Positions 12,350 through 56,270 of a DNA stretch of 64,000 bases are shown here, one piece after another; positions within the stretch are counted from its first letter, which is position 1, and every line of letters begins with the position of its first letter. The notes below the pieces were generated by a model. It was not told the DNA's origin and did not search any database. It saw only the letters and a list, made by a program, of their open reading frames with translations. Origin of the DNA: Carallia brachiata (Eukaryota > Streptophyta > Magnoliopsida > Malpighiales > Rhizophoraceae); the NCBI GenBank assembly GCA_021464245.1, contig JADCRB010000114.1:806001-870000 (forward strand), written 5' to 3'. The translations under genes were made by a program, and so were the position numbers.

Positions 12350-13222
12350 TGGAACGGGGTAAATTTCGAGTCTAAAACAGTTAAACTCGAAAATACAAAA
12401 ATAAATTTAAAATAAAAGCGTGGGGTCGATCTTCGTAGATCCTCCGATTAGTGTTTCTTTTTTTTTTTTGACTCTGTCAAGGTTGCACGAGCTTGATCTT
12501 AACAGAAATAATTTCCACAGTTTATCTTGAACTGGGTAGACTGAAACTGTATCTGATTTGGACGTTTAGACTACGGTTAAGAATCGCAGAGACCTGATCA
12601 GAGCCGATCTGGCTTAATTTCACCGAGGGCCGAAAGGACTTGTTCTCGGATGAGCTGCCTGGATTTTGCTGAGTGTCGTATGAGACTTAATCCTAGCCGG
12701 ATTTGTAATATTTTGATATTTTCAGATCTATATTCTCATAAATTCAGATCTATGGCGATCAGAGAATATAAATCCAAAAATAATCTTAGAAATGGAAACA
12801 GCAAATTTTTTGGGACTTACCCCTGAAATATCTCTAAAAAAGGAATTAGGAGAGTATACTGTAGAGTAAAACACGTAAGAAAAGGAGAAATTTTCTTAAG
12901 AGATTTTCAAAATTTTCTTTTTCTCTCAAATTCTCTGATTTTTTTTGTTTACAGATTTGCTGAATCTGTTTTGAACTGAGGGGCAGGGGCCTATTTATAG
13001 GGTTCCTTTCTCGTGTGAAAGCACGAGTGTGAAAGGAATAAGTCGAATTTTCCGTGTGAAAGCACTCGTGTGAAAGGAATAAGTTGACTTTTCCGTATGA
13101 AAGCATGCGTGCGAAAGGAATAAGTCGACTTTTCCGTGTGAAAGTACACATGTGAAAGGAATAAGTCGACTATTGACTCTTTTTTCTTTTTTTTCTTTTT
13201 TCTTTTTTTTTTTATGTTTACA
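12350..13222 (-). repeat. 3' LTR of element A
   Basis: It runs from TG at 12350 to the CA of TTTACA at 13222 and aligns along its length with 24217-25100. It contains a TATA box on the minus strand (CTATTTATAG on plus at 12991-13000). Four 41-bp repeats lie immediately upstream of that TATA box in transcription direction, so the promoter/U3 part is at 12990-13222 and R/U5 at 12350-12985. Many point differences from the right LTR show the insertion is not recent. Confidence 0.9.
13007..13170 (-). repeat. Four 41-bp tandem repeats in the LTR U3 region
   Basis: Four near-identical 41-bp units end in AAGTCGAC or a one-base variant (units end at 13046, 13088, 13129 and 13170). Each contains GTGTGAAAG and GAAAGGAATAAG. 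The same array is present in the right LTR at about 24889-25052. Its place just upstream of the LTR TATA box suggests reiterated enhancer elements. It is not a CRISPR array: there are no spacers. Confidence 0.85.
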
Positions 13223-13240
13223 AATGCCCCCACTTCAAGG
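13223..13240 (-). promoter_or_regulatory. Polypurine tract of element A
   Basis: Directly inside the 3' LTR, the minus strand reads GAAGTGGGGGCATT before TGTAAACAT. This is the expected place and composition of the plus-strand primer of reverse transcription. Element B has the decayed equivalent at 41710-41725. Confidence 0.7.
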
Positions 13241-14083
13241 GTCGGTAAGGAAGAACTTTACAGACGTGATCCGCATCGAGTCTTGAAGTCCAGTTTGAAA
13301 CTTGAGATGTCCTGATGAACATTGAATATTGAAGTCTTCTAACTCTGACTATGCCTGCTGTTGTTGGATCGCAATAGGAATCCAATACGATCTTGAGAAA
13401 GTTAGCACCCCAGCCAATATAAAAAATTGACATTCTGGCTCTAGGTGTGGTCGAGCTTCCATAGCTCGCAAAGGCTAGCAACGGTTCTTTGACCAAAGCT
13501 CTGGTGAGGATGATTCGGTAGGCAAATAACTTGAACCTTCCCAAGAGGAATGCCCAGCACCTCGGAATTTCAAGACCGGCACACAGAGAGACTGACTGTA
13601 GTGATGATTCCCGAGTCTACTCCGACGTAAGCAGAGTAGTTGGAACTTCCCTATACGTCGCCGCATCCAAAGGAAGATTAGGATGATTGCAGCTTCTCAT
13701 CCCTCTGTGGTAGATGTGAACTAAGGAGAGAAGTTGGAACTCCATGACACCGATGGCGTTGGAGACTGAGTTTCGAGAGCTTTTACGGATCCCTCAAGGA
13801 AGACTACTCCTTCTTTTCTTAGCTCGTGCGTCTCCAACTTCTTGATCAAAGAACTTCCTAAAACAAGTGTAGAGACTAGCCATTCTCTTTTGAGAAGAAG
13901 AAGAGCTGAGGGGTGAGTATTATGGCTCGGACATGCAGGATATATATACATAACATAAAGAGTTTTTTTTTTTGTTTGAAAGTCAAAAAGGAGGTAGGCA
14001 GAATCGAGTAGGGTCATCCACGTCCCTTTCCCGCATAAGAGACAAAAGAGGCAGCGGCTGACGCGCGTCACGAAAGTCGTTAC
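13241..14083 (-). other. Element A 3' region downstream of the WOX cargo
   Basis: About 840 bp between the cargo gene and the PPT. Element B carries a recognisable counterpart at 41730-42560; element C has lost it except the last part from about 53766. Short minus-strand frames (for example 13721-14071) are present, but the frames are not conserved between A and B, so I treat it as untranslated 3' sequence of the element. Confidence 0.5.
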
Positions 14084-14171
14084 CGTGTGTTGCAGAAGTC
14101 ATTGCCGTGTGCTGCAGAAGTCATTGTCGTGTGCTGCAGAAGTCATTGCCGTGTGCTGCCAAAGTCGTTGC
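14084..14171 (-). repeat. 22-bp tandem repeat, four units
   Basis: The plus strand reads CGTGTGCTGCAGAAGTCATT-like units of 22 bp repeated four times with one or two changes each. Element C has three units at 53816-53881, and element B at most one or two recognisable units near 42565-42600. It lies just downstream of the stop codon of the WOX-type gene, so it would be in that gene's 3' untranslated part. Confidence 0.75.
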
Positions 14172-14191
14172 ACCTTGTCTTGTCAGCCGTC

Positions 14192-14801
14192 CTAACGGGG
14201 CCCGAGGTGCAGTTCCAAGTCAAGCTCGACCTCGTCTGGTGGGCCGATGATGTTGACGTCGCTTTCCGGCTGGTTGATGCTGCCGGAATATTTGGAAAGA
14301 GAGGCAAAGTTTTTCCGAAATGACTCATTTCTGCTAAAAAAATTCCTCCTAGACTTAAGTACCTAGGAGGGATGAACCCTTGGCTGATTCCGTAAGACCA
14401 CCAGGACCAGTACACATGCTCCCACAAGCTACGGCTTTGATCGTTATAGCCTGAAGAGACTATTTCGTGGTAGAACTCGGACCTGCTTTATTTGAGGGCG
14501 AAGTTGTACCGGTGTGATCTATTATCGGAACGACAGACTGTTCTTTGGAAAAACCAGCTCTCAGTCTCGGTTTCTTCCTGCTTCTCCGATTCTGGAACCA
14601 ATAAAACACATTTTTTCCTTCGATTGCCCCGAGCGGGCGCAATCGTGAGACAAGTTGGTAAATCTGAGATGCATTAGGCATAATACCTCCATTGTTGTGG
14701 AAGACTTCCTCCAAAATTTGCAGTTGTGCCATGGTTGGTTGCCACCTTGTGCGGGGTGACCTTTCTTCTCCCTTATCTTGAAGTTCTGCAACTGGTTCCA
14801 T
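14192..14801 (-). pseudogene. WUSCHEL-type (WOX) homeobox gene carried by element A, frameshifted
   Basis: The ATG at 14801 starts MEPVAELQDKGEERSPRTRW. Residues about 17-80 form a WOX homeodomain: RTRWQPT, QLQILEEVF, MPNASQIYQLVSRLRPLG, then IEGKNVFYWFQNRRSRKK, the FYWFQN signature being specific to the WOX family. A 1-bp deletion near 14450 stops the frame at 14460. In the next frame (14143-14427) the conserved middle (SLWEHVYWSWWSYG), then GKTLPLFP, a WUS-box-like motif, can be read. A further 1-bp loss shifts the end, which in the other frame reads LDLELHLGPR and stop at 14192-14194, an EAR-like LxLxL. WOX proteins are plant-specific transcription factors of stem-cell and organ patterning. 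Same orientation as pol, between integrase and the 3' LTR. Compared with element C it lacks 8 bp in total (6+1+1). Confidence 0.85.
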
Positions 14802-14889
14802 CTTTCTTGTGGCAAATGAGCAAAAGTCTGGTAGGTGGTGAAGATCGGTTGAGACTGATGCTGAGTTTCAGACTCAAACCCTCCGTTGC

Positions 14890-14901
14890 TTTTATATTTT
14901 T
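14890..14901 (-). promoter_or_regulatory. TATA-like box of the WOX cargo gene in element A
   Basis: The minus strand reads AAAATATAAAAG about 90-100 bp upstream of the WOX ATG. The equivalent A/T box is kept in element B (43301-43312) and element C (54607-54618), each followed on the minus strand by a short leader and the ATG. A start site here would give a transcript independent of the LTR. Confidence 0.5.
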
Positions 14902-14939
14902 GGGCCGTTCACAGTTTATACTCATGCGGGCCAAGAGTT

Positions 14940-15228
14940 GGATTGGATTTTGAACTTGGGTTCTGGACTGTGTCTAGAACTTGGAATTTTTTGGGTTTTG
15001 GGCTTTGGATTGGATTTTGGTCGAGTGTTTGGGCTTATTGACTTGGATTTTTGGATTTGGGTCGAGTGGGTTTTGGATTTGGATTTTTAGATTTGGGTTG
15101 AGTGTTTGGGTTTTGAGTCTGGACTTAGTTTTCAAGTTTTGGGTTGGCTTTAAGTTTTCTGAATTGGGCTCAAGTGTTTGGGCTTGGATTTTCGCTTGGA
15201 CTTTCAGATCGGGACTTCCCAACTTTTT

Positions 15229-15265
<37 letters not shown>

Positions 15266-15315
15266 ATTTTTTTCTTTTTTTTTTTTTTTTTTTTTTTGAT
15301 TTTTTTTTTAAACAT
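14940..15315 (-). repeat. CCAAAA-rich spacer and poly(A) tract between pol and WOX cargo
   Basis: On the minus strand, the pol stop at about 15318 is followed by an A-rich tract (15225-15310, almost pure T on plus) and then roughly 280 bp of degenerate CCAAAATCC/CCCAAACACTC-type repeats (14940-15220). Similar blocks lie at 43340-43625 in element B and 54650-55015 in element C. Long phenylalanine- or lysine-rich open frames here are only read-through of these tracts. Confidence 0.75.
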
Positions 15316-15317
15316 AT

Positions 15318-16600
15318 TTACACATAATATTGTTTCAGAAATTTACCATTGATGAGGCCAATTCGGACGCCTTCTTGGTCTGACAGCATGTAAGCGTTGT
15401 GAGTATAGGCCTCCTGCACTAAGTATGGCCCGTCCCATTTGGAAGTAAGCTTGTCACCAGGCCGATGCTTCATGTTGATGGGCCGTCGCACTGCAAGAAC
15501 AAGGTCTCCAACTTGAAAAGATCGAGGCGGACCCTGCGGTTGAACGTGTTGGTGAGCCGGGCTTGGTAGCACTCAAGTTGCTGTTGTGCTTCGAGCCTCC
15601 TTTCATCGAGGGCTTCTAACTCATCCAGACGTAGGCGAGCATTCTCCTCCTGTGTGAGTCCTTCCAGAACAGCCATGCGCAGAGATGGAATCTGTGTTTC
15701 CAACGGCAGTATTGCTTCGACACCGTAGACAAGTGAGTATGGCGTCGCCTGTGTTGGAGTCCGGTAAGTTGTACGATACGCCCATAATGCCTCCGGAATT
15801 CTGTCATGCCAATCTCTTTTGGATTTAGAGACTACCTTCCGCAACAGGTTGCATAAGGTCTTGTTGAATGCTTCAGCCAAGCCATTTGCTGGGGCATTGT
15901 ACATGGATGACTTGTACTGCTTGAACTTGAATTTCTCGCAGAGCTTGTCGATCAAGCTGTTGTAGAACTGCTTGCCATTATCAGTGATGATGAATCGAGG
16001 GACTCCATAGCGATAGATCAGCTGAGTCCGGATGAAATTGGCAACATGCTCCTTCTTTACCTCTCTAAGTGGAATGGCTTCAGCCCATTTTGAGAAGTAG
16101 TCTGTTGCTGCGAGGATGTAAGGTGACCCAGGGATGACTTTGGCAAAGGCCCCACTAAGTCGAGACCCCAAGCTTCAAAGGGCCAGGATGAGACAGTTGG
16201 ATGCAGTGGCTCCGGTGGTTGATGTATGTAATTCGCATGAAATTGACAAGCTTGACAGGTTTTAGCAAACTCAATTGAATCACGTACCATAGTTGGCCAG
16301 TAGTATCCCATCCTTCTGAGCTGAAAGTGCAACTTAGGTCCCGATTGATGTCCGCCACAAACACCAGAATGTGCTTCAGCGAGAGCTTGTTTTGCCTCTT
16401 CATTGCCTAGGCAGCGAAGCAAAACTCCATCAAAAGACCTTCGATACAGAGCATCCTTGAGATATATGAAGCGGGGAGCTCGTCGTTGAATTTCTGTCTT
16501 ATGACGACGATCTTCGGGCAGCTTCCCGTGCTGTAGGTAGTCAATGATTGGTTGGCGTCAATCTCGTCCTCGCGAGACGTATAGATACACCGTTGGCTGC
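15318..16600 (-). pseudogene. Integrase domain of element A pol
   Basis: Read on the minus strand: the HHCC zinc-binding part (HSGVCGGH...CQACQ) lies in 16240-16400. It is followed by the integrase core with the first Asp in WGLDLVGPLP, a frameshift near 16130, then TDYFSKWAEAIPL, IITDNGKQF (second Asp) and NGLAEAFNKTL (catalytic Glu). A second frameshift near 15500 leads to the C-terminal region (RSFQVGDLVLAVRRP, KWDGPYLV) ending in KQYYV and stop at 15318. The catalytic DDE residues are all present, but two frameshifts prevent a full protein. It would insert the cDNA into the host genome. Confidence 0.88.
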
Positions 16601-17100
16601 TGTAGTTTCTTCATCATCCTACTGTGGCACTATCCATTTCTGGCATACGGCAACAACTGTAGCCTGGATTTCTGACTTTGCAAGAGAGGTGGCCAAGTTA
16701 GCCAACGCGTCTGCCTGAGTGTTTTCTCGTCGAGGCACATGCTCCAAGGTGATGCTTTCAAATTCATCCATTAGCTGTCGAGCACGTTGATGGTAAGGTG
16801 CAAGATCCTCTTTCTTTACATCATACAACCCTGTAAGTTGGTTGATGAGGAGCTGGGAATCTCCATGGACTTCTATAGTTGGAATCTTCATATCGACAGC
16901 CATTTGAAGACCAATGATTAAAGCCTGGTATTCGGCAACATTATTTGAACATAACTCACCGAGTATGATAGCATATGGTAGTATTTGTCGTTGAGGAGTG
17001 ACAAACACTATGCCGGCACCAGCACCATCACGTCTTGCTGCACCATCAAAGAACATCGTCCATGGTGGCAGTGTCTCAATGTAAAAGACCTCTTCATCCG
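16601..17100 (-). pseudogene. Second, archaeal-type RNase H of element A pol
   Basis: Minus-strand residues FFDGAARRDGAGAG (first Asp), NNVAEYQALI (Glu), VHGDSQLLINQL (Asp) and RRENTQADALANLA (last Asp) give the complete DEDD set of an archaeal-like RNase H. This extra domain after the ordinary gypsy RNase H is diagnostic of the Tat lineage and is thought to compensate for the degenerate first RNase H. The frame 16619-17056 is open over 145 codons. Confidence 0.9.
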
Positions 17101-17159
17101 GAAGATCGTCTGTGAACTTCCAATCGGACGAGACAGGGCGATCTGCTAGAAAATCTGCT

Positions 17160-17690
17160 AGGGCTTGTCCCTTTATTGCTTTTTAAGGCACGTATACAAT
17201 GTCGTAGCTCTGTAAGATTACTGCCCACTTGGCAAGTCGTCCTGACAAGATCGGTCTAGATAAGATATATTTGACAGGATCACCTTTGGCAATGAGACGT
17301 ACTGTGTGAGCTTGCATGTAGTGCCTCAGCTTATCAGTGGCAAAGAACAGTGCTAGACATGTCTTTTCAATGGGCGAATAGCTCAGTTCCGGACCGTTTA
17401 GTATTCTGCTCAAGTAGTACAGGGCAACTTCCTTTCCCTGCTCATTTTCCTGTGCAAGCAAGGCTCCCAAAGATCTTTCCTGCGCTGCAATGTAAAGAAT
17501 CAACGACTTTCCTTGAATTGGAGCTCCTAGGATTGGTGGATTGGAAAGGTACTTCTTTATACTCTCAAAGGCTTTGCTGCAAGCTTCGTCCCACTCGAAG
17601 TTGACATCTTTCTTCATTAACCGATGGAAAGGTTGACATCTCCTAGCTAAGTTTGGAATAAAACGGCGAATGCAGGCCAGGTTTCCTTAT
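17160..17690 (-). pseudogene. First RNase H and connection domain of element A pol
   Basis: The open frame 17183-17617 contains the connection start (VNFEWDEACSKAFESIK), LILYIAAQERSLGALLAQ and YSPIEKTCLALFFATDKLRHYM, then SGRLAKWAVILQSYDI. The usual L-D-A-S catalytic Asp after LY is replaced (LYIAAQ), as expected for the degenerate RNase H of Tat elements. A stop and a frame change near 17620-17690 separate it from RT. Confidence 0.85.
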
Positions 17691-18381
17691 AAACTTTGCA
17701 GCTCGTGCATGTTTTTAGGTTCAGGCATCTTTTGAATTGCCTCAACCTTGGACTGATCAACTTCGATTCCACGATGGCACACCACGAACCCAAGAAACTT
17801 TCCTGATGTGACACCAAATGCACACTTGAGAGGGTTCATTTTAAGCTGATGCCTGCGAAATCTTTCAAACACCGTCTTGAGATCCTCGAGGTGGTCTTTG
17901 CGCTTCTTAGTATTTACAACTAAGTCATCAACAAAACATTCTACAATCTTGTGCAGCATGTCATGAAAATTTTTTTACATAGCACGTTGATAAGTGGCGC
18001 CAACATTTTTTAATCCAAACGACATAACTTTGTAGAAACTTCGCAGCTCGTACATGTTTTTAGGTTCAGGCATCTTTTGAATTGCCTCAACCTTGGACTG
18101 ATCAACTTCGATTCCACGATGGCGCACCACGAACCCAAGAAACTTTCTTGATGTGACACCAAATGCACACTTGAGAGGGTTCATTTTAAACTGATGCCTG
18201 CGAAATCTTTCAAACACCGTCTTGAGATCCTCGAGGTGGTCTTTGCGCTTCTTAGTATTTACAACTAAGTCATCAACATAACATTCTACAATCTTGTGCA
18301 GCATGTCATGAAAATTTTTTTTGCATAGCACGTTGATAAGTGGCGCCAACATTTTTTAATCCAAACAGCATAACTTTGTAG
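17691..18381 (-). repeat. 345-bp tandem duplication inside the RT domain
   Basis: Units 17691-18035 and 18036-18381 are near-identical head-to-tail copies. Each encodes FGLKNVGATYQRAM, the catalytic Asp pair (FVDD in one, YVDD in the other), VNTKKRKDHLEDLKTVFERF and FLGFVV followed by QSKVEAIQKMPEPKN. Elements C and D have one copy only, so the duplication is specific to element A. It puts two active-site loops in series and breaks the frame. Confidence 0.9.
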
Positions 18382-19406
18382 CAGTATATACCTTTTGGGG
18401 TGCGGAATGCTGTCAACTCCTCATCTTCTGGTGCCATTCTGATTTGGTTATAGCCTAAAGAACCATCCATGAAGGACAATCCTTCGTGACCCGTTGTTGC
18501 ATCGACTGTGATCTCTGTTATGAGCAATGGAAAGTCATCTTTTGGACAGGCCCGGTTAAGATCTCGAAAATCAACACATACCCTCAATTGTCCATTCTTC
18601 TTCCTTACCGGGACTATGTTGGCAATCCACGTTGGGTAGGTGACCTCTCGGATGAAGCCAGCATTGATCAGCTTGTTAACCTCCTCCTCGATTTGTGGAA
18701 TGAGTTCCGAGCGAAACCGTCTTTGTGGCTGCTTGACAGAACGAACACCTTTCTTTACTACTAGACGATACACCGCGATTTTTGGGTCAAGTCCAGACAT
18801 TTCTTTGTAACTCCATGCGAACACGTCCCTGTATTGACTTAATACCTGAACATATTCTTGCTCTTCTTCTGTAGTAAGTAAAGCACTTACAAATGTAGGT
18901 CGAGGATCTTCCAGAAAGCCAAGATTGACCTTTTTGAGTTCATCAATAGTTGTTTGGCCACCATCTTCAAGTTCCGGGGGAGCCTCCTTTACTTCACCGT
19001 CTGATGAGTCAGACTCAGCTTCCTCGCTAATTGTGACATGAAATGTAGAGCCTCTGACTTCACCTTCTTTGTTTGACTGGATAAGCCTGTCTTGTTTGGT
19101 GGTGGTGGTGATGGCATGTGCATCAGCTGCTCGGCTTCGACTCTTTAGCGTGATCCGCACAGGTGACTTCTCTTGATAGCCTAAGCCAGGTCGGGACTGT
19201 GATGTTTGAGAAGTAGCGCCATGTGTGGACGGCAGCGTACCCATTGTGCTCGGGTTTGAGAAGTCATAGACCGCTTTGACCAAAAGCTTGTATGCATTAG
19301 GATCAAATCCTTCATGTGTTCTTCTTTTTGGAAGCGAGCCGCCTTGACTACCCCCGTGTGTGGTTTGACGAAGCCTTTTAATGGTTTTGAGGATGAAACG
19401 GCTCAA
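18306..19406 (-). pseudogene. Linker and N-terminal half of RT, element A pol
   Basis: A 366-codon open frame. The first 150 residues are a low-complexity acidic linker (EEAESDSSDGEVKEAPPELED). Then come the RT start (VLSQYRDVFAWSYKEMSGLDP), KQPQRRFRSELIPQIEEEV, KNGQLRVCVDFRDLNRACPKD and SFMDGSLGYNQIRM. Canonical RT motifs 1-4 are recognisable, with the YVDD Asp pair in the duplication that follows. It would copy the element RNA into DNA. Confidence 0.9.
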
Positions 19407-19479
19407 TCTTTAGTACGAGTGTAAGTCCCCTTCAGGTTGTGCAGTTCTTTTGTCTTGGGTTGGCTATGTCCTTGCTCCT

Positions 19480-20135
19480 GTTTAGGATCAATACAATAAG
19501 AAAAGGGGTTGACCTTCTGGGCGTCGTGACTTCGGCACATAGCGTAGGACTGTAGTGGAGCTTGAAGATGCAACATCCTTCAGACGAAGTTCAGCAGGCT
19601 GTGGCAGCTTTTCATTTGTCGGAGTCTGAGGTTGAGTATTGGCAGGTTCTTCGACAGCTTTTCCCATTTTGTGGATGCCCCCGATCCAAGTAGCTTTAGA
19701 TGAAATGATCTCTGGATTGTCTGTATCGGTATAAAAGACTGCATCCGTCAAATGTGATTCAGCATCATCGAACGGCTTTAAATCAGCATTGACCTTTTGA
19801 ACGCCATCCTTGTAGTACTTAAAGCACTGATGTAGACTTGAGAGCACAACTCCATTTCCATGAATCCACGGTCGTCCTAATAATATCTTATATGTGGTAC
19901 GTGCATCGATCACATGAAATAGAGTGCTAGAAGTGAGATTACCGATAGTTAACTCCAAGCGAATCATCCCAATTACTTTCTGTCCTCCTTGATTAAAGCC
20001 ATGAATCATCAAGCGGCTGTCTGATAATTCATCAATGCCAATTCCAAGCTCCTTTATGGTGGATTTTGGGATAATATTGACTGCCGAGCCATCGTCGATC
20101 AGAATACGTCGGACCTTCTGTTCTCTCACATAGCC
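19480..20135 (-). pseudogene. Retropepsin-like protease of element A
   Basis: The open frame 19488-20129 begins at REQKVRRILIDDGSAVNIIP, with the aspartic protease motif D-D-G-S-A. It continues SDSRLMIHGFNQGGQKVIGM and LLGRPWIHGNG, the usual flap and end of the domain (L-L-G-R-x-W). It processes gag-pol. It is followed by a proline-rich tail. Confidence 0.88.
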
Positions 20136-22142
20136 TGATACATACAGCGGCCGATTGTGGGGTTTGGACCCCAGTAGGAGATCCTCATCTGAAAATGATG
20201 TAGCGGAGTAACATCAGACGTGATTTTGGGCCGTATGTTGCTCCGTCGAGTTGGAATTACTTGATGGTAGAGATCTAACTGAGGCCTGGAGAATATTGCT
20301 GACTTGATTCTGCCATTTTTCTTTTGATTGCGCAAACAACTGAGGGTTAACGAGAAGAGTTTGAAGAGCTTCATATACATTCTATATTGTCGACTTTTTG
20401 TCACCGAGTGGCTCATCCTTATGGTGTGACGCCTCTTCTGATGGTTTTGAAGTGATAGTGGTCTGGTTTGACGAGGTTACGCCTTCCTGGTCCAGAATGA
20501 TTTTATTCTGGCTCTTGAGATTCATGATTAGCTCCTTCAGGACGAAACACTTCCCAGTTGGATGACTTACTATCCGGTGATATTTACAGAATCTTGGATC
20601 GTTGACTCGATCCTTTTCATTCAGCTGCTTGCACTCTGGGAGTTCGATCAACTTCGCCTCCAGGAGTTGGTCAAGGATGTCGGGAACGTCTGAGTCGGGG
20701 AATGGATACTGCTTCTGCTCCAACTCTTGCAATGTCACTTTCCACCTTTCCTGTTGTTTTGACTGAGTTATTTGAGTCAGAGGATTTACCTTGGCTTACC
20801 TCCCACTTTTACTGGTGCGGCTTCAACAGTCATCACTTCTTTTCCTTTTCCAGAACTGTTGGGTTTCTTAATCTCCCTTCAGCTCCCTTGCTGGTCCAAC
20901 TAGATGGAAACCGTTCCCCCGGAAGTCTGGATGCTTATCTCCATATCATGTGCACGGGTGGCCAGTTCTTCGAAGGTTCAGTGTTTGATACCCTGCAGGA
21001 TGTATAACATCTCCCAATGCATTCCTTGGATGCACATCTCCACGGCAGAAGTTTCTGTCAGGCGATCTTTGCAGTCCAAGCTGAGAGCATGCCATCTGTT
21101 GATGTATTCGACAACGGGCTCTCCTTTCCTTTGTTTGGTGCTGGTAAGCTCCATCATACTTACCGTCCTTCGAGTGCTGAAAAATCGGTTGAGGAACTCT
21201 CGTTGTAGCCGTTCCCAACTGTCGATCGATTCTGATTCAAGATTTATGAACCAGGTGAAAGCGGTCTCCCTAAGTGAACGAACAAACTGCTTCACCAAGA
21301 GATCTCCGTAAGTCCCTGCGTTGTTGCAGGTTTCAACGAAGTGGGCGATGTGCTGTTTGGGATCGCCTCATCCATCGAATTGTTGAAATTTGGGCGGCTG
21401 GTAGCCGAGAGGCATGTTGAGACTTTCGATCCGTACGGTTTAACGTACATCTGTGATCCTTGGAAGGATGTAGCTTGTTGCAGGTGGATCGTATTGGCTA
21501 TCATTTCCTGTAATTGTTTAACAGATAGCGAAGCTATAGAATTTCAGGGTGGCAGCTGTGTAGAACTACATAGTCGCTTTTCTACTGTGAAAACGTCGGC
21601 TGGTGTGGCTTCTGGAGTGAAACCGGGTGGATATGGTTGCTCCTCACGGATCTCGGGATCAATTTGGATCGGGGCTTTTCCTTTGAGAGCGGCGATCTGT
21701 TGATATTTTTCCTCCACGACTCTGATTAACTACAAAAGCTTGTTTTCCAATTCTAAAATTCTTTCTTCTATACTGGTTGTGTTGGTCATCATGACGGCAA
21801 CAGACGAGGCTCCACGAAAGACTGGGGGGAGAATTCTTCTGCTTCCTCTGTGTGGATCTCTACAGAATGTGTTGGATTCTGTTGAGCGAGCTTCGTCCTG
21901 CTGCCCCCGACTTCGATCGGGGTGGGCGATCGACTCTTCCATGCGGCAAGAGAGTCAGGGAAGAGATCCTGTTGTGCGAGCTGTGGACTCTCTGTGTTGA
22001 TATTTTGTCGGGTTTGGACGGCAAGAAACTGTGTCCGTCTCCGGGTTTCTGGTCCTTCGTATCTAGGTAGGGTAGTTGATGCAGGTAATGGAGCCGTTGC
22101 CTTCTTTTTGGTACCGGCGGCTGTACTTCTCTTTGGTGTCAT
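20136..22142 (-). pseudogene. Gag of element A
   Basis: The start codon at 22142 opens MTPKRSTAAGTKKKATAPLP. Downstream, in shifting frames, are PTHSVEIHTEE, the capsid region (YQPPKFQQFDGRGDPKQHIAH, as seen in the related copies) and RSLRETAFTWFINLE, REFLNRFFSTRRTVSMMEL and EYINRWHALSLDCKDRL, which form the Retrotrans_gag domain. The C-terminal part (20382-20738) has a CKYHRIVSHPTGKCFVLKELI stretch, a zinc-finger-like Cys/His segment typical of Tat gag. Several frameshifts break it. Confidence 0.85.
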
Positions 22143-22375
22143 TTGATGTGCTCAACACCTGTAAATTTTTTTTTTTTTTTACTTTTTTATCTTTTTCGTC
22201 TTTTTTTTTTCTCTTTTCTTTTTCTTTTTCTTTTTTGTTTTTTTCTTTTTCTTTTTTTCTCGGTTCTTTTCTTTTTTTTTTTCTTTTCTTTTCTCTGCTG
22301 CTTCTTTTTGCCTTTTTTTTTTTTAAGGAACAAGAGATGAGAGATGAAGAGGTCCCACCGAGAGTGCCAAAAATT
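22143..22375 (-). promoter_or_regulatory. Leader with purine tract and primer-binding site, element A
   Basis: On the coding (minus) strand, the LTR end is followed by AATTTTTGGCACTCTCGGTGGGACC (22350-22375), the place of the tRNA primer-binding site. Elements C and D read TGGCACGCCTAGTGGGACC here. I do not assign the tRNA. Then about 160 bp are almost only A and G (pure T/C on plus, 22167-22326), just before the gag start. Confidence 0.6.
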
Positions 22376-22825
22376 TGGAAAGGGGTAAATTTCGAGCCTA
22401 AAACAATTAAACTTGAAAATACAAAAATAAATTATAAATAAAAATTTAAAATAAAAGAAAATTTACGTGGGGTCGATCTCCGTAAATCCTCCGATTAGTA
22501 TTCCTCTTTTTTTTTTGACTCCGTCAAGGGCTGCACGAGCTTGATCTTGACAGAAATAATTTTCACTGCTTTATCTTGAACTGGGTAGACTGAAACTGTA
22601 TCTGATTTGGACGTTTAGGCTACGGTTAAGAACCGCAGAGACTTGATCTGAGCCGATCTGGCTTAATTTTACCGAGGGTCGAAGGAACTTATTCTCGGAT
22701 GAGCTGCCTGAATTTTGCTGAGAGCCGTATGAGACTTAATCCCAGCTGAATTTGTAATATTATGATATTTTCAGATCTATATTCTCATAAATTCATATTT
22801 AGGGCGATCAGAGAATATAAATCCA
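22376..22825 (-). repeat. Truncated extra LTR inside element A
   Basis: It begins at the LTR terminus (TGGAAAGGGGTAAATTTCGAG at 22376) and follows the LTR for 450 bp before stopping at the N at 22826. It shares changes with the right LTR (for example CAGCTGAATTTGTAATATTATG) that the left LTR lacks, so it is closest to 24217-25100. Confidence 0.85.
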
Positions 22826-22826
22826 N
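22826..22826. other. Assembly N at a repeat junction
   Basis: A single N joins the truncated LTR to a second gag segment. The abrupt change from LTR to mid-gag at this base suggests a contig join between repeats. Confidence 0.8.
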
Positions 22827-24216
22827 TGTGCGCGGGTCGCCAGTTCTTCGAAGTTCGGGTTTGACACCCTGCAGGATGTATAACAGCTCCCAATGCATTC
22901 CCTGGATGCACATCTCCACGGCAGAAGTCTCCGTCAGGCGATCTTTGCAGTCCAAGCTGAGGGCACGCCATCTGTTGATGTATTCGACAACGGGCTCTCC
23001 TTTCCTTTGTTTGGTGCTGGTAAGCTCCATCATACTTACCGTCCTTCGAGTGCTGAAAAATCTGTTGAGGAACTCTCGTTGTAGCTGTTCCCAACTGTCG
23101 ATCGATTCTGGTTCAAGATTTATGAACCAGGTGAAAGCGGTCTCCCTGAGTGAACGAACAAACTGCTTCACCAAGAGATCTCCGTAAGTCCCTGCGTTGT
23201 TGCAGGTTTCAACGAAGTGGGCGATGTGCTGTTTGGGATCGCCTCGTCCGTCGAATTGTTGAAATTTGGGCGGCTGGTAGCCCAAGGGCATGTTGAGACT
23301 TTCGATCCGTACGGTTTACGTACATCTGTGATCCTTGGAAGGATGTAGCTTGTTGCAGTCGGATCGTATTGGCTATCATTTCCTGCAATTGTTGAACAGA
23401 TAGCGAAGCTAGAATTTGAGGGTGGCAGCTGTGTAGAACTACCTGGTCGCTTTTCTAGTGAAGACGTCGGCTGGTGTGGCTTCTGGAGTGAAACCGGGTG
23501 GATATGGTTGCTCCTCGCGGATCTCGGGATCAATTGGATCGGGGCTTTTCCTTTGAGAGCGGCGATCTGTTGATCTTTTTCCTCCACGACTCTGATCAGC
23601 TGCAAAATTTTGTTTCCAATTCTGAAATTCTTTCTCTGTACTGGTTGTGTTGGTCATCATGACGGCAACAGATGAGGCTCCGAAAGACTGGGGAGAATCT
23701 TCTGATTCTCTGTGTGGATCTCTACAGATGTGTTGGATTCTGTTGAGCAGCTTCGTTGTTGCCCCCGACTTCGATCGGGGTGGGTGATCGACTCCTCCAT
23801 GCGGCAAGAGAGTCAGGGAGAGATCCTGTTGTGCGAGCTGTGGACTCTCCATTTCGATATTTTGTCGGGTTTGGACGGCAAGAAAGTGTCCGTCCCCGGG
23901 TTTCTGGACCTTACCCAGGTAGGGTAGTTGATGCAGGCAATGGAGCCGTTGCCTTCTTTTTGGTACCGGCAGCTGTACTTCTCTTTGGTGCCATTTGATG
24001 TGAACACCTGTAAATTTTTTTTTTTTTTTTTTTATCTTTTTTCTTTTTTTTTTCTTTTTTTTTTCTTTTCTTTTTTTTTTTTTTTTTTTCTTTTTCTTTT
24101 TTTCTCGGTTCTTTTTTTTTTTTTTTTTTTCTTTTCTCTGCTGCTTCTTTTTCCTTTTTTTTTTTTAAGGAACAAGAGATGGAGATGAAGAGGTCCCACC
24201 GAGAGTGCCAAAAATT
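22827..24216 (-). pseudogene. Second copy of 5' gag, leader and PBS in element A
   Basis: The segment repeats 20948-22375: the same capsid phrases (FQQFDGRGDPKQHIAHFVETC, RSLRETAFTWFINLE, EYINRWRALSLDCKDRL), the same purine leader (about 24013-24172) and the PBS-like site (about 24195-24216). Multiple frameshifts are present (frames 22785-23291, 23168-23605 and 23439-23852). Gag reaches only to the N at 22826. Confidence 0.85.
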
Positions 24217-25100
24217 TGTAAAGGTAAATTTCGAGCCTAAAAAATTAAACTCGAAAATACAAAAATAAATTACAAATAAAAATTTAAAATAAAAGAAAAT
24301 TTACGTGGGGTCGATCTCCGTAATCCTCCGATTAGTGTTCCTTTTTTTTGACTCCGTCAAGGGCTGCACGAGCTTGATCTTGACAGAAATAATTTTCCAC
24401 TGCTTTTCTTGAACTGGGTAGACTGAAACTGTATCTGATTTGGACGTTTAGGCTACGGTTAAGAACCGCAGAGACTTGATCTGCGCCGATCTGGCTTAAT
24501 TTTACCGAGGGTCGAAGGAACTTATTCTCGGATGAGCTGCCTGGATTTTGCTGAGGGCCGTATGAGACTTAATCCCAGCTGAATTTGTAATATTATGATA
24601 TTTTCAGATCTATATTCTCATAAATTCATATTTAGGGCGATCAGAGAATATAAATCCAAAAATAATCTTAGAAATGGAAACAGCAAATTTTTTGGGGCTT
24701 ACCCCTGAAATATCTCTAAAAAAGGAATTAGGAGAGTATACTGTAGAGTAAAACACGTAAGAAAAGGAAATTTTCTTGAGAGATTTTCAAAATTTTCTTT
24801 TTCTCTCAAATTCTCTGAATTTTTCTGTTTGCATATTTGCTGAAACTGTTTTGAACTAAGGGGCAGAGGCCTATTTATAGGGTTCTTTTCTCATGTGAAA
24901 GTATGCGTGTGAAAGGAATAAGTCGACTTTTCTGTGGGAAAGTACGCGTGCGAAAGGAATAAGTGGACTTTTCTGTATGAAAGCATGCGTGCGAAAGGAA
25001 TAAGTCGACTTTTCCGTGTGAAAGCACACATGCGAAAGGAATAAGTCGACTATGGACTCTTTTTTTCTTTTTTTTTCTTCTTTTTTTTTTTATGTTTACA
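24217..25100 (-). repeat. 5' LTR of element A
   Basis: An 884-bp LTR from TGTAAAGG to TTTACA. TATA box on minus at 24871-24880 (CTATTTATAG on plus); four 41-bp U3 repeats at about 24889-25052. Followed directly by GAGTG (25101-25105), matching 12345-12349 on the other side of the element. Confidence 0.9.
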
Positions 25101-40895: not shown

Positions 40896-41709
40896 TGTAA
40901 CGGACGTAAATCTCGAGTCTGCAATAATTAAACTCGAAAATACAAACACACTTTACAAATAAAAATTTAAAATAAAATAAAATTTATGTGGGGTTGATCT
41001 TCGTCGGGTCCTCCGATTAGTGTTCCTTCTTGACTCTGTCAAGAAGGAACACATTTGATCTTGACAGAAATGATTCTACAGCTTTATCTCGAACTGAGCA
41101 GGACTGAAAGTGGATCTGATGTAGACGTTTGGACTACGGTTAAGAACCGTAGAGACCTGATCTTACTTGATTTGGTTTGATTTCATCTAGAGCCAATGGG
41201 ACTTATTCTCGGGTGAGCTACCTGAACTTTACTAAAAGCCGTATAAGACTTGATCTCAACTAGATTTATAATATTTTGGTATTTTAAATCTATACTCTTA
41301 CAAATTCAGATCAGAGGCGATCAGAGAGTATAAATCAAAAATACACTTAGAAATGGATATAGCAAATTTTTTGGGGCTTGTACCTGAGATATCTCTAAAA
41401 AAAAAGTTAAGAGAATATACCGCAAGGTATGAAAACGTAAGGGATGAGGGAAAATTTTGAAGGACTTTTGGAAGAGTTTTCTTTGCAATGGCTTTTTACA
41501 ATTTTCTGATGATCCTTGCAAATTGGCTAATTGCCTATTTATAAGCAATGAGCCGTGATAAAAGACAAAGGTTGGCCACCTAACGTGACCAACCAATTTA
41601 TAAATTTGCATGGTTAGCAATTGGCCGGCACCGGTCAATTGCTGACCTTTTGACTGTTTTTTTTCCTAGAAGCCGACCTTATATATATATATATATATTA
41701 ATACTTACA
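40896..41709 (-). repeat. 3' LTR of element B
   Basis: It begins TGTAACGGACGTAAATCTCG and ends ATACTTACA. A TATA box on minus lies at 41533-41542. In the U3 slot it has neither the 41-bp repeats of A nor the GTCGGCGTTGCC dyad of C/D, but its own dyads: GGTTGGCCAC/GTGACCAACC (41571-41592) and AGCAATTGGCCGG/CCGGTCAATTGCT (41616-41643). Confidence 0.8.
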
Positions 41710-42615: not shown

Positions 42616-43225
42616 TTCTGGTTGAGCCCGATGTGTAGCCCCAAGTCAATCTTGGCCTTATCTGGTGGGCCGATGATAATGACGTTGCTGGAGCTTTCCG
42701 ACTGGTTGATGCTGCCGGAATATTCTAAAAGAGAGGCAAAGTTTTGCCAGAATGGTTCTTCTTAGTACAAAAGTTCCTCTTGAATTTAAGTACTCGTGAG
42801 GGATGAATCCTTAACTGACTCCGTAAGACCACCAGAACCAGTATGCATACTCCCACAAGCCATGGCTTTGATTGTTATAGTCTAGAGGGACGATTGCAGT
42901 GGTAAAACTCAGATCTACTTCATTTGAGAGTGAAGCTGTACCAGTGAGATGTACTATAGAAACAGCAAGCTGTACTTTGGAAATAGCATGTCTCAGCTCC
43001 GCTCTCTCCCTATTTCTCCAATTCTAGAACTAAAAATATATATTTTTTCCTTCGACTGCCTCTAGCGGGTGCAATTGTGGGACAAGTTGGAGAATCTGTG
43101 ATGAGTTAGGGACAATACCTTAATTGTTGTTAAATAACTCTTCTAAAATTTGTAGTTGCTATAGTTGGGTGCCATCTTTTGCGGGGTGACCTTTCTTCTT
43201 CCTGTTGTTCTGCAGATGGTTCCAT
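42616..43225 (-). pseudogene. WOX-type cargo gene of element B, strongly decayed
   Basis: The ATG at 43225 gives MEP then ERSPRKRWHPT, matching the cargo starts in A and C. Later fragments are recognisable across stops and frameshifts: EGKNIYF-stop-F, the middle part around 42830-42900, and KTLPLF followed by a stop at the WUS-box-like site (about 42725). Near 42616-42645 it reads an LGLHIGL-like end. It confirms that the cargo was present before the copies diverged. Confidence 0.72.
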
Positions 43226-43625
43226 TTCTCTGCTGTAGAGGAGCAAAGATTTGATATGCAGGGAAAACTGAAGCGAGACTCAGACTCAAACTCACGATCA
43301 ATTTTATATTTTTGGGCCGTTCATAGTTTATATTCATGCGGGCCAGGAGTTGGACTAGATGTTGAGTGTTCGGATTTTGGATTTGGATTTAAGGTTTTAG
43401 GTTTTGGATTTGTGCTTGGGCTTCTAGATTTGGGCTCGAGTGTTTGAGTTCTAGATTGGACTTGGTTTTTTTTTTTTTTTTGAATTTGGGCTTTTGGATT
43501 TTGGGTTGAGTGTTTGGGTTTGGACTTTTTTACTGTAGATTTTCGCTTGGACTTTCAGATCGAGACTTCCGGACCCTTTTTTTTATTTTTTTTTTATTTT
43601 TTCCTTTTTTTTTGATTTTTTTGAC

Positions 43626-44304
43626 TTTTTTATATATGTATTTATACATAATAATGCTTCAAAAATTTTTCATTGATCGGACCAATCCGAACGCCTTCTT
43701 GGTCTGACAACATGTAAGCGTCGTGGATGTAGACTTCTTGCACTAAGTATGGCCCGTCCCATTTAGAAGTTAGCTTGTCACCAGGCCAGTGCTTCAAGTC
43801 GATGGGTCGTCGTACTGCCTGAACAAGTTCTCCCACTTGAAACGATCGAGGGTGAACCCTGCGGTTAAATGCATTAGTCAGTCGGGATTGGTAGCACTCA
43901 AGTTGCTGTTATACTTCGAGTCTCCTTTCATTAAGGGCTTCTAACTCATCTAGATGTAGGCGAGTATTCTCCTTCTATGTGAGTTCTTCTAGAACAGTTA
44001 TGCTCAGAGGTGGAATCTGTATTTTCAATAATAGTATTGTTTCGACACCGTAAACAAGTGAGTATGACGTCGTCTGTGTTAAAGTCCGGTCAGTTGTGCG
44101 ATACGCCCATAATGCCTTCGAAATGCTATCATGCCAATCTTTTGGATTTAGAGACTACATTGCGCAATAAATTGCACAAGATCTTGTTGAATGTTTCAGC
44201 CAAACCATTAGCTGGGGTATTGTACATTGATGACTTATACTGTTTGAATTTGAACTTCTCATAGAGCTTGTCCATCAAGTTGTTGTAAAACTGCTTGCCG
44301 TTAC
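43626..44304 (-). pseudogene. Integrase end of element B pol
   Basis: The frame 43642-43836 reads MGELVQAVRRPIDLKHWPGD then KWDGPYLVQEVY and ends KHYYV. Further right, in broken frames, are the LNALDERRLE-type helix and the NGLAE region. Truncated at 44304. Confidence 0.8.
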
Positions 44305-52300: not shown

Positions 52301-53764
52301 AGCCAACCCAAGACAAAAGAACTGCACGACTTGAAGGAGACTTACACTCTGCCAATACTAAAGATTGAGTTGGTTTTATCTTCAAAACTATTAAAAGGCT
52401 TCGTCAGACCACAAACAGGGGCAGTCAAAGGCGACTCACTTCTAGAAAGAAGAACACACGAAGTATTCGATCCTAATACATACAATCTCTTGGCCAAGGC
52501 AGGCTATGACTTCTTAAACCCGAGCACAATGGGTACGCTGCCATCTGCACATGGCACCACTTCTCAATTATTATAGTCTCGACCTGGCTTAGGCTATAAG
52601 GAGAAGTCACCTGTGTGGATGACGCTAAAGAGCCGAAGCTGACCAGCCGATGCACATGCCATCACCATCACCACCAAACAGGATAAGTTCATCTAGTCAA
52701 ACAAACAGGATGAAGTCAGGGGCTCTACATTCCATGTCACAATTAGCGATGAGGTCGATTCCGACTCATTAATTGGCGAAGTAAAGCAGGCTCCCCCAGA
52801 ACTTGAAGATGGTGGCCAAGCAACAGTTGATGAACTCAAGGAGGTCAATCTTAGCTCTCTGGAAGATTCCCGACCTACATTCATAACTGCTTTACTTACT
52901 GCAGAAGAAGAGCAAGAATATGTTTAGGTATTAAGTCAATACAGGGACGTGTTCGCATGGAGTTACAAAGAAATGCCTGGACATGACCCGAAGATTGCGG
53001 TGCATCGTCTAACGGTAAAGAAGGGTGTTCGTTCTGTCAAGCAGCCACAATGACGGTTCCGCCTGGAACTCATTCCACAAATCAAGGAGGAGGTTAACAA
53101 GCTGATTAATACTGGCTTCATCCGAGAGGTCACATACCCAACGTGGATTGCCAACATAGTCCTGGTAAAAAAGAAGAATGGACAGTTAAGGGTATGTGTT
53201 GATTTTTCTTAATAGGGCCTGTCCAAAAGATGACTTTCCGTTGCCCATAACGGAGATCACAGTTGATGCAACAATAAGTCACGAAGCATTATCCTTCATG
53301 GATGGTTCTTCAGGCTATAACCAAATCAGAATGACACTAGAAGATGAGGAGTTGACAGCATTCCGCACCCCAAAAGGTATATACTGCTACAAAGTTATGT
53401 CATTCAGATTAAAAAATTGGTGCCACTTATCAACGTGCCATGCAAAAAGTTTTTGATGACATGCTGCACAAGATTGTAGATTGTTATATTGATAACTTAG
53501 TAGTAAAGACTAAAGAGCGCAAAGACCATCTCGAGGATCTCAAAACGGTGTTTGAAAGACTTCGCAAACATCAACTCAAAATGAATCCTTTCAAGTGTGC
53601 ATTCGGTGTCACGTCAAGCAAGTTTCTTGGGTTCGTGATGCGCCATCATGGAATCGAAGTTGATCAGTCAAAGGTTGAGGCAATTCAAAACATATATGAA
53701 CCTAAAAACATATACGAACTGCGAAGTCTACAAGGAAAGTTGGCCTACATTCGCCGCTTCATCC
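52301..53764 (+). pseudogene. Linker and truncated RT of element D
   Basis: The acidic linker ends in APPELEDGG. RT reads YRDVFAWSYKEMPGHDP, a CGA codon changed to TGA near 53051, TYPTWIANIV, LNRACPKDDFPLPITEI, then MDGSSGYNQIRM, a frameshift near 53420 and CYIDNLVVKTKERKDHLED. The catalytic Asp pair is changed here (YIDN instead of YVDD). The domain ends at LAYIRRFIP, fused to element C. Confidence 0.85.
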
Positions 53765-53815
53765 CCATAAGAGACAAAAGAGGCAGTCGCTGATGCGGGT
53801 TACGAAAGTCATTAC

Positions 53816-53901: not shown

Positions 53902-54519
53902 TTAGCGGGGCCCAAGGCGCAGCTTCAAGTCAAGCTCGGCCTCGTCTGGTGGGCCGATGATGTGGACGTTCCTGGAGCCTCTCGGTTGGTTGATGCTGCT
54001 GGAATATTCTGGGAAGAGAGGCAAAGTTTCGCCGGAATGATTTCCTTCTACTAGAAAAGTCCCTCATGAACTTAAGTACTTAGGAGGAATGAAACCTTGA
54101 CTAACTCCGTAAGACCACCAGGACCAGTACGCATGCTCCCACAGGCTACGGCTTTGATCGTTATAGCCTGAAGAGACCATTGCTGTGGTATAATTCGGAC
54201 CTGTTTCATTTGAGGGCGAAGCTATACCGGTGGGATCTACTATCGGAACGGCAGACTGTTCTTTGGAAAAAGCAGCTCTCAGTGCTGGTTTCTTCCTGCT
54301 TCTCCAATTCTGGAACCAATAAAACACATTTTTTCCTTCGATTGCCCCAAGCGGGCGCAATCGTGAGACAAGTTGGTAAATCTGAGATGCATTAGGCATA
54401 ATACCTCCATTGTTGTGGAAGACTTCCTCCAAAATTTGCAGTTGTTCCATGGTTGGTTGCCATCTTGTGCGGGGTGACCTTTCTTCTCCCTTATCTTGAG
54501 GTTCTGTAACTGCTTCCAT
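53902..54519 (-). pseudogene. WUSCHEL-type (WOX) homeobox gene carried by element C, one in-frame stop
   Basis: The ATG at 54519 opens MEAVTEPQDKGEERSPRTRW. The homeodomain at about residues 17-80 reads QLQILEEVF, MPNASQIYQLVSRLRPLG and IEGKNVFYWFQNWRSRKK (R to W in helix 3 compared with element A). It continues open to residue 151 (SLWEHAYWSWWSYG, GFIPPKYLSS), ends at TGA 54061-54063, and the same frame goes on with GETLPLFP (WUS-box-like) and ends ELDLKLRLGPR with a stop at 53902-53904. The whole region is 618 nt, about 205 codons, with that single lesion. In WUS/WOX proteins the homeodomain binds DNA, and the WUS box and EAR motif recruit TOPLESS-type corepressors. It sits between integrase and the 3' end of a Tat element, same strand as pol. 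Confidence 0.88.
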
Positions 54520-54606: not shown

Positions 54607-54618
54607 CTTTTATATTAT
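54607..54618 (-). promoter_or_regulatory. TATA-like box of the WOX cargo gene in element C
   Basis: The minus strand reads AATAATATAAAAGC about 90-100 bp upstream of the ATG at 54519, collinear with the box in element A. Confidence 0.45.
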
Positions 54619-54649
54619 TGGGCCGTTCATAGTTTATACTCATGCGGGC

Positions 54650-55023
54650 CAGGAGTTGGTATTGGATTTTGAACTTGGGTTCTGGACTATGTCTGGAACT
54701 TGGAATTTTTTGGGTTTTGGGCTTTGGATTGGATTTGGGTCGAGTGTTTGGGTTTTGGATTTAGATTTTTGGATTTGGGTTGAGTGTTTGGGTTTTGAGT
54801 CTGGACTTAGTTTTCAGGCTTTTGAGTTGGGCTTTGAGTTTTCTAAATTGGGCTCAAGTGTTTGGGCTTGAATTTTCGGGTTTGGATTTTCGCTTGGACT
54901 TTCAGATCGGGACTTCCCAATTTTTTTTTTCATTTTTTTTCTATATATATATTTTTTATTTTTTTGATTTTGTTCTTTTTTTTGAATTTTTTTTTTTAAA
55001 ACATATTTACACATAATACTGTT
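54650..55023 (-). repeat. CCAAAA-rich spacer and A-rich tract (element C)
   Basis: The same spacer as 14940-15315: degenerate CCAAAA/CCCAAGTTC repeats on the minus strand and an A-rich tract next to the pol end. Confidence 0.7.
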
Positions 55024-56270
55024 TCAAAAATTTACCATTGATCGGACCGATTCGGACGCCTTCTTGGTCTGACAGCATGTAAGCGTTATGAGTGTAGGCC
55101 TCCTGCACGAAGTATGGCCCGTCTCATTTGGAAGTAAGCTTGTCACCAGGCCGATACTTCATGTTGATGGGCCATCGCACTGCAAGAAGAAGGTCTCCAA
55201 CTTGAAAAGATCGAGGGCGGACCCTGCGGTTGAACGTGTTGGTAAGCCAGGTTTGGTAGCACTCTAGTTGTTGTTGTGCTTCAAGCCTTCTTTCATCGAG
55301 GGCTTCTAACTCATCCAGACGTAGGCGAGCATTCTCCACTTCTGTGAGTCCTTCCAGAACAGCCATGTGCAGAGATGGAATCTAAGTATGGCGTCACCTG
55401 TGTTGGAGTCCGGTAAGTTGTACGATACGCCCATAATACCTCCAGAATTCTGTCATGCCAATCTCTTTTGGATTTAGAGACTACCTTCCGCAATAGGTTG
55501 CATAAGGTCTTGTTGAATGCTTCGGCCAAGCCATTTGCTGGGGCATTGTACATGGATGACTTGTACTGCTTGAACTTGAATTTCTCGCAGAGTTTGTCAA
55601 TCAAGCTGTTGTAGAACTATTTGCCATTATCAGTGATGATAAATCGAGGGACTCCATAGCGACAGATCAGTTGAGTCCGGATGAAATTGGCAACATGCTC
55701 CTTCTTTTCCTCTCTAAGTGGAATAGTTTCGGCCCATTTTGAGAAGTAATCTGTTGCTGCAAGGATGTAAAGGTGACCAGGGATGACTTTGGCAAAGGCC
55801 CCACTAAGTCGAGACCCCAAGCTTCAAAGGGCCAAGACGAGACAGTTGGATGCAGCGGCTCCGGTGATTGATGTATGTAATTCGCATGAAATTGACAAGC
55901 TTGACAGGCTTTAGCAAACTCAATGGAATCACGTACCATGGTTGGCCAGTAGTATCCCATCGTTCTAAGCTGAAAGTGCAACTTAGGCCCTGATTGATGT
56001 CCGCCACAAACACCAGAATGTGCTTCAGTGAGAGCCTATTTTTTCCTTTTCATTGCCTAGGCAGCAAAGCAAAACTCCATCAAAAGATTTTTGATACAGA
56101 GCATCCTTGAGATATATGAAGAGGGGAGCTCGTCGTTGAATTTCTGTCTTATGCCGACGATCTTCGGGCAGCTTCCCGTGCTGTAGGTAGTCAATGATTG
56201 GTTGGCGCCATTCTTCGTCCTCCGCGAGTCATACAGATACATCGTTGGCTACTGTAGTTTCTTCATCATC
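55024..56270 (-). pseudogene. Integrase of element C pol
   Basis: HHCC remnants and CQACQFHANYIH (55860-55960), WGLDLVGPLPKSS, TDYFSKWAETIPL, IITDNGK followed by a stop (55617), NGLAEAFNKTL, and the C-terminal KWDG region. About 60 bp are missing near 55385 compared with element A (the LPLETQIPSLRM part). Two frameshifts and a stop inactivate it. Confidence 0.85.

Follow-up and report, generated by a model that had tools for sequence, protein, structure and literature searches.

Host-derived extra open reading frames (aORFs) are already known from plant Ty3/gypsy elements, few of them with a known function. Nearest among the described systems listed are the Ogre-sister Tat elements of Phalaenopsis, whose aORF encodes an AlkB m6A demethylase; like the elements described here, they form a large Tat-related Ty3/gypsy family that carries a host-derived domain as an extra ORF through many copies, but the product there is an RNA demethylase active in vitro, whereas here it is a predicted WUS homeodomain protein (PMC9289625). 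Host developmental gene domains also occur in Gypsy consensuses, YgdH/LONELY GUY in Citrus and B3 in Aegilops tauschii, although these are LOG-type and B3 domains and ours is a homeodomain (PMC9289625). The section of that paper on its screen of 121 angiosperm genomes names no homeodomain, and "homeo" has 0 occurrences in the main text (PMC9289625). Retand elements, which are related within the Tat clade, also have an aORF that lies between pol and the 3' LTR and for which DNA binding is proposed, but their TRP28 ORFs are antisense, unlike the sense WUS-type ORF described here (PMC11963269). Maize Bs1 and other transduced genes likewise place host gene sequence within an LTR element, in one or a few copies compared with the hundreds of listed places reported below (PMC7264820).

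The matches listed from open-licence PMC papers (titles and starts of abstracts) included no report of a WUS or homeobox cargo in a plant LTR element. The human double-homeodomain retrogene DUX4 is, to our knowledge, not itself carried inside an LTR element. As a homeobox retrogene tied to retroelements, whose sequences it binds, it resembles the present case, but it is an animal gene (PMC3836709).

WUSCHEL-type ORFs in three Tat-type elements

The window analysed here is a 64-kb stretch of Carallia brachiata DNA with three elements, A, B and C, that carry the cargo ORF. A sequence-only reading of the window had placed a WOX-type ORF at 53902..54519 and described it as a sense aORF of Tat-type elements. 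Both points were borne out: the ORF occupies this position, and a WUS-type gene follows the integrase in sense orientation in A, B and C.

53902..54519, minus strand: WUS-derived aORF of element C, 205 codons plus stop (ATG at 54519, stop at 53902)
14192..14801, minus strand: WUS-derived aORF of element A, homeodomain intact, frame lost after codon 113
42616..43225, minus strand: WUS-derived aORF of element B, decayed, homeodomain of type 2 (see below)

In C, the homeodomain spans codons 16-79 and is followed by an internal TGA at codon 152, TLPLFP at 165 and ELDLKLRL at 195; TLPLFP and LDLKLRL are in frame, yet 3' of the TGA. Compared with C, the A aORF is one base short at two points, after codon 113 and at the WUS box; the B aORF has several stops and frameshifts. 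None of the three window copies is therefore intact, and the earlier description of the cargo as a whole regulator fails for them. Of the motifs that had been reported as retained (FYWFQN, TLPLFP and LxLxL), FYWFQN is present in A and C and not in B. The identification had been made to depend on a significant homeodomain match, and this was obtained far above chance: the Pfam Homeodomain E-values were 1.5e-11 for C and 5.6e-13 for A, and the top solved structure in a PDB sequence search with the aORF was the Arabidopsis WUS homeodomain (E 4.3e-19).

The elements around these ORFs have the following parts.

12350..25100, minus strand: complete Tat-type element A, with a duplicated stretch and an N (22826) inside
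24217..25100, minus strand: 5' LTR of A, 884 b, followed by TTGGCACTCTCGGTGGGACC (PBS by position); flank CACTC at 25101-25105
12350..13222, minus strand: 3' LTR of A, 873 b, AAGTGGGGGCATT just before (PPT by position), CACTC after
15473..16171, minus strand: integrase (rve) of A, from Pfam
16622..17056, minus strand: RVT_3 RNase H of A, lying between RH and INT as the aRH does in angiosperm Tat
17186..17617, minus strand: RT-type RNase H (RT_RNaseH) of A
17978..19406, minus strand: reverse transcriptase of A, in two overlapping ORFs
40896..41709, minus strand: 3' LTR of B, outer end approximate
43797..44303, minus strand: integrase remnant of B, boundary approximate
55162..55820, minus strand: integrase region of C, aligned to the A integrase

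Element A is an LTR retrotransposon with paired LTRs (K2P between them 0.077), a target site duplication (CACTC at both LTR ends), and a PBS and a PPT, each recognized by position only. Its domain order is gag-PR-RT-RH-second RNase H-INT-WOX, with a PR match below the Pfam cut-off; the RVT_3 domain we take to be the aRH. Tat elements have such a second RNase H (aRH) besides RH, and in Ogre/Retand it lies between RH and INT (PMC6317226). By its second RNase H and its domain order, element A is classed in the Tat lineage of Ty3/gypsy. The listed matches of the PR-bearing ORF are proteins of Prunus, Malus, Cucumis, Sesamum and other plants, some named Ty3-gypsy. The INT-LTR stretch of A, where Retand elements have their antisense TRP28 ORF, contains a single antisense ORF of 100 aa or more, a low-complexity frame (14981-15352). 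A stretch of A is duplicated on either side of the single N at 22826 (20949-24658), which looks like an assembly gap.

Element B, a 3' fragment, comprises an INT remnant, WOX, the leader and the 3' LTR in the order of A, to which it is ~75% identical. Element C has integrase and cargo, and its 3' end meets an opposite-strand (plus) element at ~53,770; at 53760-53810 this end stands tail to tail with the pol of a plus-strand relative whose 5' LTR lies near 49001-49750. The junction is a rearrangement or a misassembly. The sequence-only reading had put the cargo between integrase and the 3' LTR in three copies; since C lacks its own 3' LTR and ends at the opposite-strand element, this placement is seen in A and B.

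A CCAAA-rich low-complexity spacer separates integrase from cargo (54640-55000 and counterparts), its length varying among A, B and C. Ahead of the cargo ATG, GGCCC-TATAAA occurs twice within 44 nt, which gives this block a promoter-like look:

14890..14933, minus strand: 44-nt GGCCC/TATAAA block 5' of the A ORF
43302..43345, minus strand: 44-nt GGCCC/TATAAA block 5' of the B ORF
54608..54651, minus strand: 44-nt GGCCC/TATAAA block 5' of the C ORF

We considered the block as a conserved promoter and rejected this: only 2 of 44 sites differ between A and B, and even so the scan-corrected P of 0.13 is not significant.

The cargo across the host genome

We searched the window's own assembly (337.5 Mb) with the cargo protein (best 150 scored matches of 2026 candidates), the integrase (best 151 scored matches of 2879 candidates, 150 of them used in the cargo-neighbour count) and an intact type-2 cargo (best 150 of 2340 candidates). 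Pooling of the cargo-protein search, the type-2 search and a homeodomain search, with merging of near places, gave at least 343 distinct cargo-like places, those from the homeodomain search alone resting on the homeodomain match and not individually read. From the homeodomain search we left out the first ten rows, assigned to host WOX genes, and the row of C itself, which the cargo-protein search covers.

A listed cargo lay within 2.5 kb downstream on the same strand for at least 75 of the 150 integrase places, and upstream for 0 of 150. Among the remaining 75, all seven that were fetched with downstream sequence carry the cargo (L084-L088, L090 and L091; hand-picked and thus non-random), as does L083, which was integrase-picked and later found among the listed cargo places; L089 has integrase only in the sequence fetched. 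Every integrase-picked element that could be read downstream therefore carries the cargo, and absence of the WOX region from other members, which had been named as evidence against the earlier reading, was not seen among those read. Viewed from the cargo, integrase lay within ~1.5 kb upstream at 60 of 72 loci, the leader downstream at all 72 and the start of a 3' LTR at 52. The WUS-type ORF is almost certainly a family-wide aORF and not a one-off transduction. No relatives were confirmed in viral_contigs and genome_contigs, which may not include the genome of the window itself, and a search of 5.8 billion proteins gave no close relatives (7 hits among 13 candidates, the best 53% identical over 48% of the query).

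Intact copies exist, with an ORF of at least 203 residues at 10 of 30 loci and of at least 191 residues in 19 of 73 sequences. In the intact type-2 search, by hand count from the table, 123 of the best 150 rows span the ORF stop-free, 10 are interrupted by a stop and 17 cover part of it; because the query was intact and these rows match it best, the share applies to them and not to the family as a whole. An identical score of 387.9 bits in 23 of these 150 rows points to recent amplification. At five of 30 loci (L001, L002, L007, L019 and L021) the longest ORF has 151 residues and stops short of the WUS box; this shortened form may have been a source of copies in its own right.

Two homeodomain types in one backbone

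A second homeodomain type is carried by L083, L084, L088, L090 and B. L083 and L087 are 99% identical in integrase, 94% in the spacer, 98% at the N-terminus, 88% in the mid segment, 97% at the C-terminus and 100% in the leader (28 bases), but only 82% in the homeodomain, and their synonymous divergence is 0.48 in the homeodomain and 0.045 after codon 138. Such homeodomain divergence inside a near-identical backbone implies that old homeodomain types came to share one backbone, most simply through recombination between elements. The two types co-circulate in the family: by identity (hand count), the 150 best rows of the intact type-2 search comprise 87 of type 2 (91% or more) and 63 of type 1 (81-85%).

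Origin of the cargo

The element homeodomain has 52 residues from W to WFQN, a spacing found in 50 of the 120 WOX hits listed. TLPLFP occurs in 37 of these 50 hits and in 0 of the 70 others, and LxLxL after the box in 38 of 50 compared with 1 of 70. The cargo has all three WUS characters: a homeodomain of WUS length, the TLPLFP WUS box and the LxLxL EAR end. An AlphaFold model (8 sequences) of the 113-residue open frame of A reached pLDDT 90-94 over residues 21-70 and 70.7 overall. Its best Foldseek match in the PDB was the WUS homeodomain bound to TGAA and TAAT DNA, and all 11 matches with E of 0.001 or less were WUS or STENOFOLIA. On homeodomain length, box, EAR end and fold, a WUS derivation of the cargo is hardly in doubt.

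The host WUSCHEL gene (G000:C90:2365849-2367408) shares the homeodomain spacing, TLPLFP and an LxLxL end (SLELSLN) with the cargo, but differs in its separated exon stretches, a longer mid region and its homeodomain. Other host loci, which we name by resemblance, are presumably a second WUS (C65), two WOX1, WOX5, two WOX4, WOX3 and WOX2. Host WUS, WOX1 and WOX4 genes (L071-L079; names by resemblance) occur in pairs, as after whole-genome duplication.

When seven of the nine host WOX homeodomains were compared with A, WUS gave the best alignment score (31/63 identical, one gap), and WOX3 gave more identities (34/61) but four gaps. An origin from WOX3 was also favoured by the ILEE and PNASQI that WOX3 shares with the element homeodomain, and the highest raw identities among the hits were WOX3-like. 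A homeodomain tree (69 columns) does not decide, since placements with WUS (p-AU 0.853) and with WOX3 (p-AU 0.831) both pass. We set the WOX3 origin aside because homeodomain length, box and EAR end point to WUS, which also aligns with the better score.

Unlike host WUS, the cargo is free of introns; citrus WOX genes, for comparison, have 1-3 introns (PMC8124563). It was therefore likely captured through mRNA. In simulations of neutral drift to 53% homeodomain identity, a mean of 5.4 stops arose and 0.2% of runs were stop-free, an argument that an already diverged donor would weaken.

Selection on the cargo

Between A and B, the whole WOX region has 80 changed codons (79.4 expected under random placement), its homeodomain 25 (26.9 expected, P 0.27) and the integrase 38 (44.2 expected, P 0.051, or 0.0045 in the other direction). 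Between A and C, 16 integrase codons changed (23.6 expected, P 0.005) and 8 of the second RNase H (12.9 expected, P 0.0085). By K2P, A and B differ by 0.263 in the cargo, by 0.266-0.285 in LTR, spacer and leader, and by 0.171 in integrase. In this comparison the cargo looks neutral, and integrase and second RNase H are constrained. The conclusion of a neutral cargo that we first drew from these tests was dropped on comparing intact subfamilies; the A-B-C result itself stands.

Compared with ten intact type-1 copies, L083 has 14-17 changed homeodomain codons against 19.5-22.8 expected (P of 0.032 or less in 10/10); the ten comparisons all share L083, and L083 and L087 were integrase-picked and the other nine partners cargo-picked. 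A P of 0.05 or less was reached by the mid segment in 4/10 and by the C-terminus in 0/10. For L083-L087, the homeodomain has 14 changed codons against 22.1 expected (P 0.00125), and the adjoining mid segment 17 against 16.9; NG86 dN/dS is 0.28 in the homeodomain and 0.63 in mid segment 80-138. Homeodomain change indistinguishable from neutral, which the earlier reading had named as evidence against itself, was thus found between A, B and C (B at least has decayed) but not between intact subfamilies.

Among intact copies, dN/dS in pairs with dS of at least 0.10 was 0.23 for the homeodomain, 0.47 for the mid segment and 0.86 for the C-terminus (109 pairs), and 0.33 for integrase (74 pairs), the homeodomain and mid values being biased down, since these loci had been ranked on the similarity of their cargo protein and such ranking depresses dN. 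For variants in at least 10% of copies, N/S was 0.63 in the cargo (72 sequences), 0.40 in the homeodomain (12 variants) and 0.26 in integrase (57 sequences). Rarer shared variants (cargo 1.02, integrase 1.04) indicate no constraint in either, and singletons gave 0.88 and 0.87. The commonest residue has a share of 0.952 in the homeodomain, 0.893 in the mid segment, 0.927 in the box, 0.930 in the EAR and 0.84-0.850 in the rest of the C-terminus; 49 of 80 copies have exact TLPLFP, and 76 of 78 keep hydrophobic residues at the four alternate sites of the EAR-like end. The homeodomain is very probably under selection. The next segment is less clearly constrained, and the C-terminus is near neutral.

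DNA-binding residues

WUS reads bases through R38, Q89, N90 and R94 (PMC7203112). All four are kept in A and C, and across the copies R38 is found in 77/80, Q89 in 69/80, N90 in 78/80 and R94 in 75/79. Position 36 is R in A, C and 74/80 copies and in 0 of the 120 WOX hits listed. The WUS variants T35R and S36R have altered binding to a TAAT probe (PMC7203112). From the kept base-reading residues and R36 it is a fair inference that the cargo protein would bind DNA, perhaps with a shifted preference. The WUS box and EAR end suggest repression by analogy, and a protein that both binds DNA and represses is somewhat more likely than not. WUS-like repressors recruit TOPLESS-type corepressors. A functional WUS-like repressor is one that binds TGAA, TAAT or G-box DNA, and the case for the cargo consists of residues and motifs. 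The LTRs of element A have no enrichment of WUS sites, and self-regulation is therefore unsupported here.

Discussion

In the explanation that we prefer and, as a whole, consider probable, a WUSCHEL coding sequence, processed and free of introns, would have been captured long ago by a Tat-lineage Ty3/gypsy family, which would have kept it ever since as an aORF in sense orientation, placed after integrase and before the 3' LTR. The predicted product, of ~205 residues, combines a WUS homeodomain and WUS box with an EAR-like LxLxL end; most likely it would act in the nucleus as a DNA-binding repressor encoded by the element, with a homeodomain of importance to the element. The steps would be mRNA capture, translation, DNA binding, repression and a benefit to the element.

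A cargo that arrived by chance, is inert and has been copied with a successful backbone would account for the neutral A-B-C comparison and the near-neutral C-terminus, and youth alone explains the open ORFs of young copies. Such passive hitch-hiking nevertheless seems unlikely to us, given the homeodomain constraint between old types (with neutral neighbouring sequence as an internal control for L083-L087), an ORF still open after deep divergence from host WUS, and no visible ORF lesion common to A and C where 2.4-4.3 would be expected (P0 0.013-0.095, rough). The host rather than the element might also have been selected, with one or more copies co-opted as a WUS-like regulator and the rest as by-products. 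Derivation from a host regulator and the existence of intact ORFs agree with co-option, but the constraint lies between element subfamilies in many places, not at a single locus, and both homeodomain types ride in the same backbone, which makes it very improbable. We give scarcely more than nominal weight to selection on nucleic acid (a promoter, RNA structure or splice signal) in place of protein: the 44-nt block with its few A-B differences would fit, but it loses significance after scanning, and the homeodomain signal is codon-specific.

How an element-serving WUS-like repressor might pay its way is a more tentative matter. We propose, as a possibility, that the cargo gives an advantage through meristem or germ-line tissue. 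It is conceivable, though doubtful, that the family has domesticated WUSCHEL as a regulator of its own, maintains two alternative homeodomain modules that differ at the end of the recognition helix and exchanges them among nearly identical backbones, and that it uses the protein in stem-cell lineages, in which new insertions are heritable, to influence either the meristem programme of the host or the transcription of the element. A constrained stem-cell transcription factor at hundreds of places would constitute an element-encoded developmental regulator. Two questions thereby become open to direct test: do plant elements act on the meristem from which the germ line arises, and by what are aORFs selected? 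The presence of two homeodomain types in one backbone provides a natural comparison.
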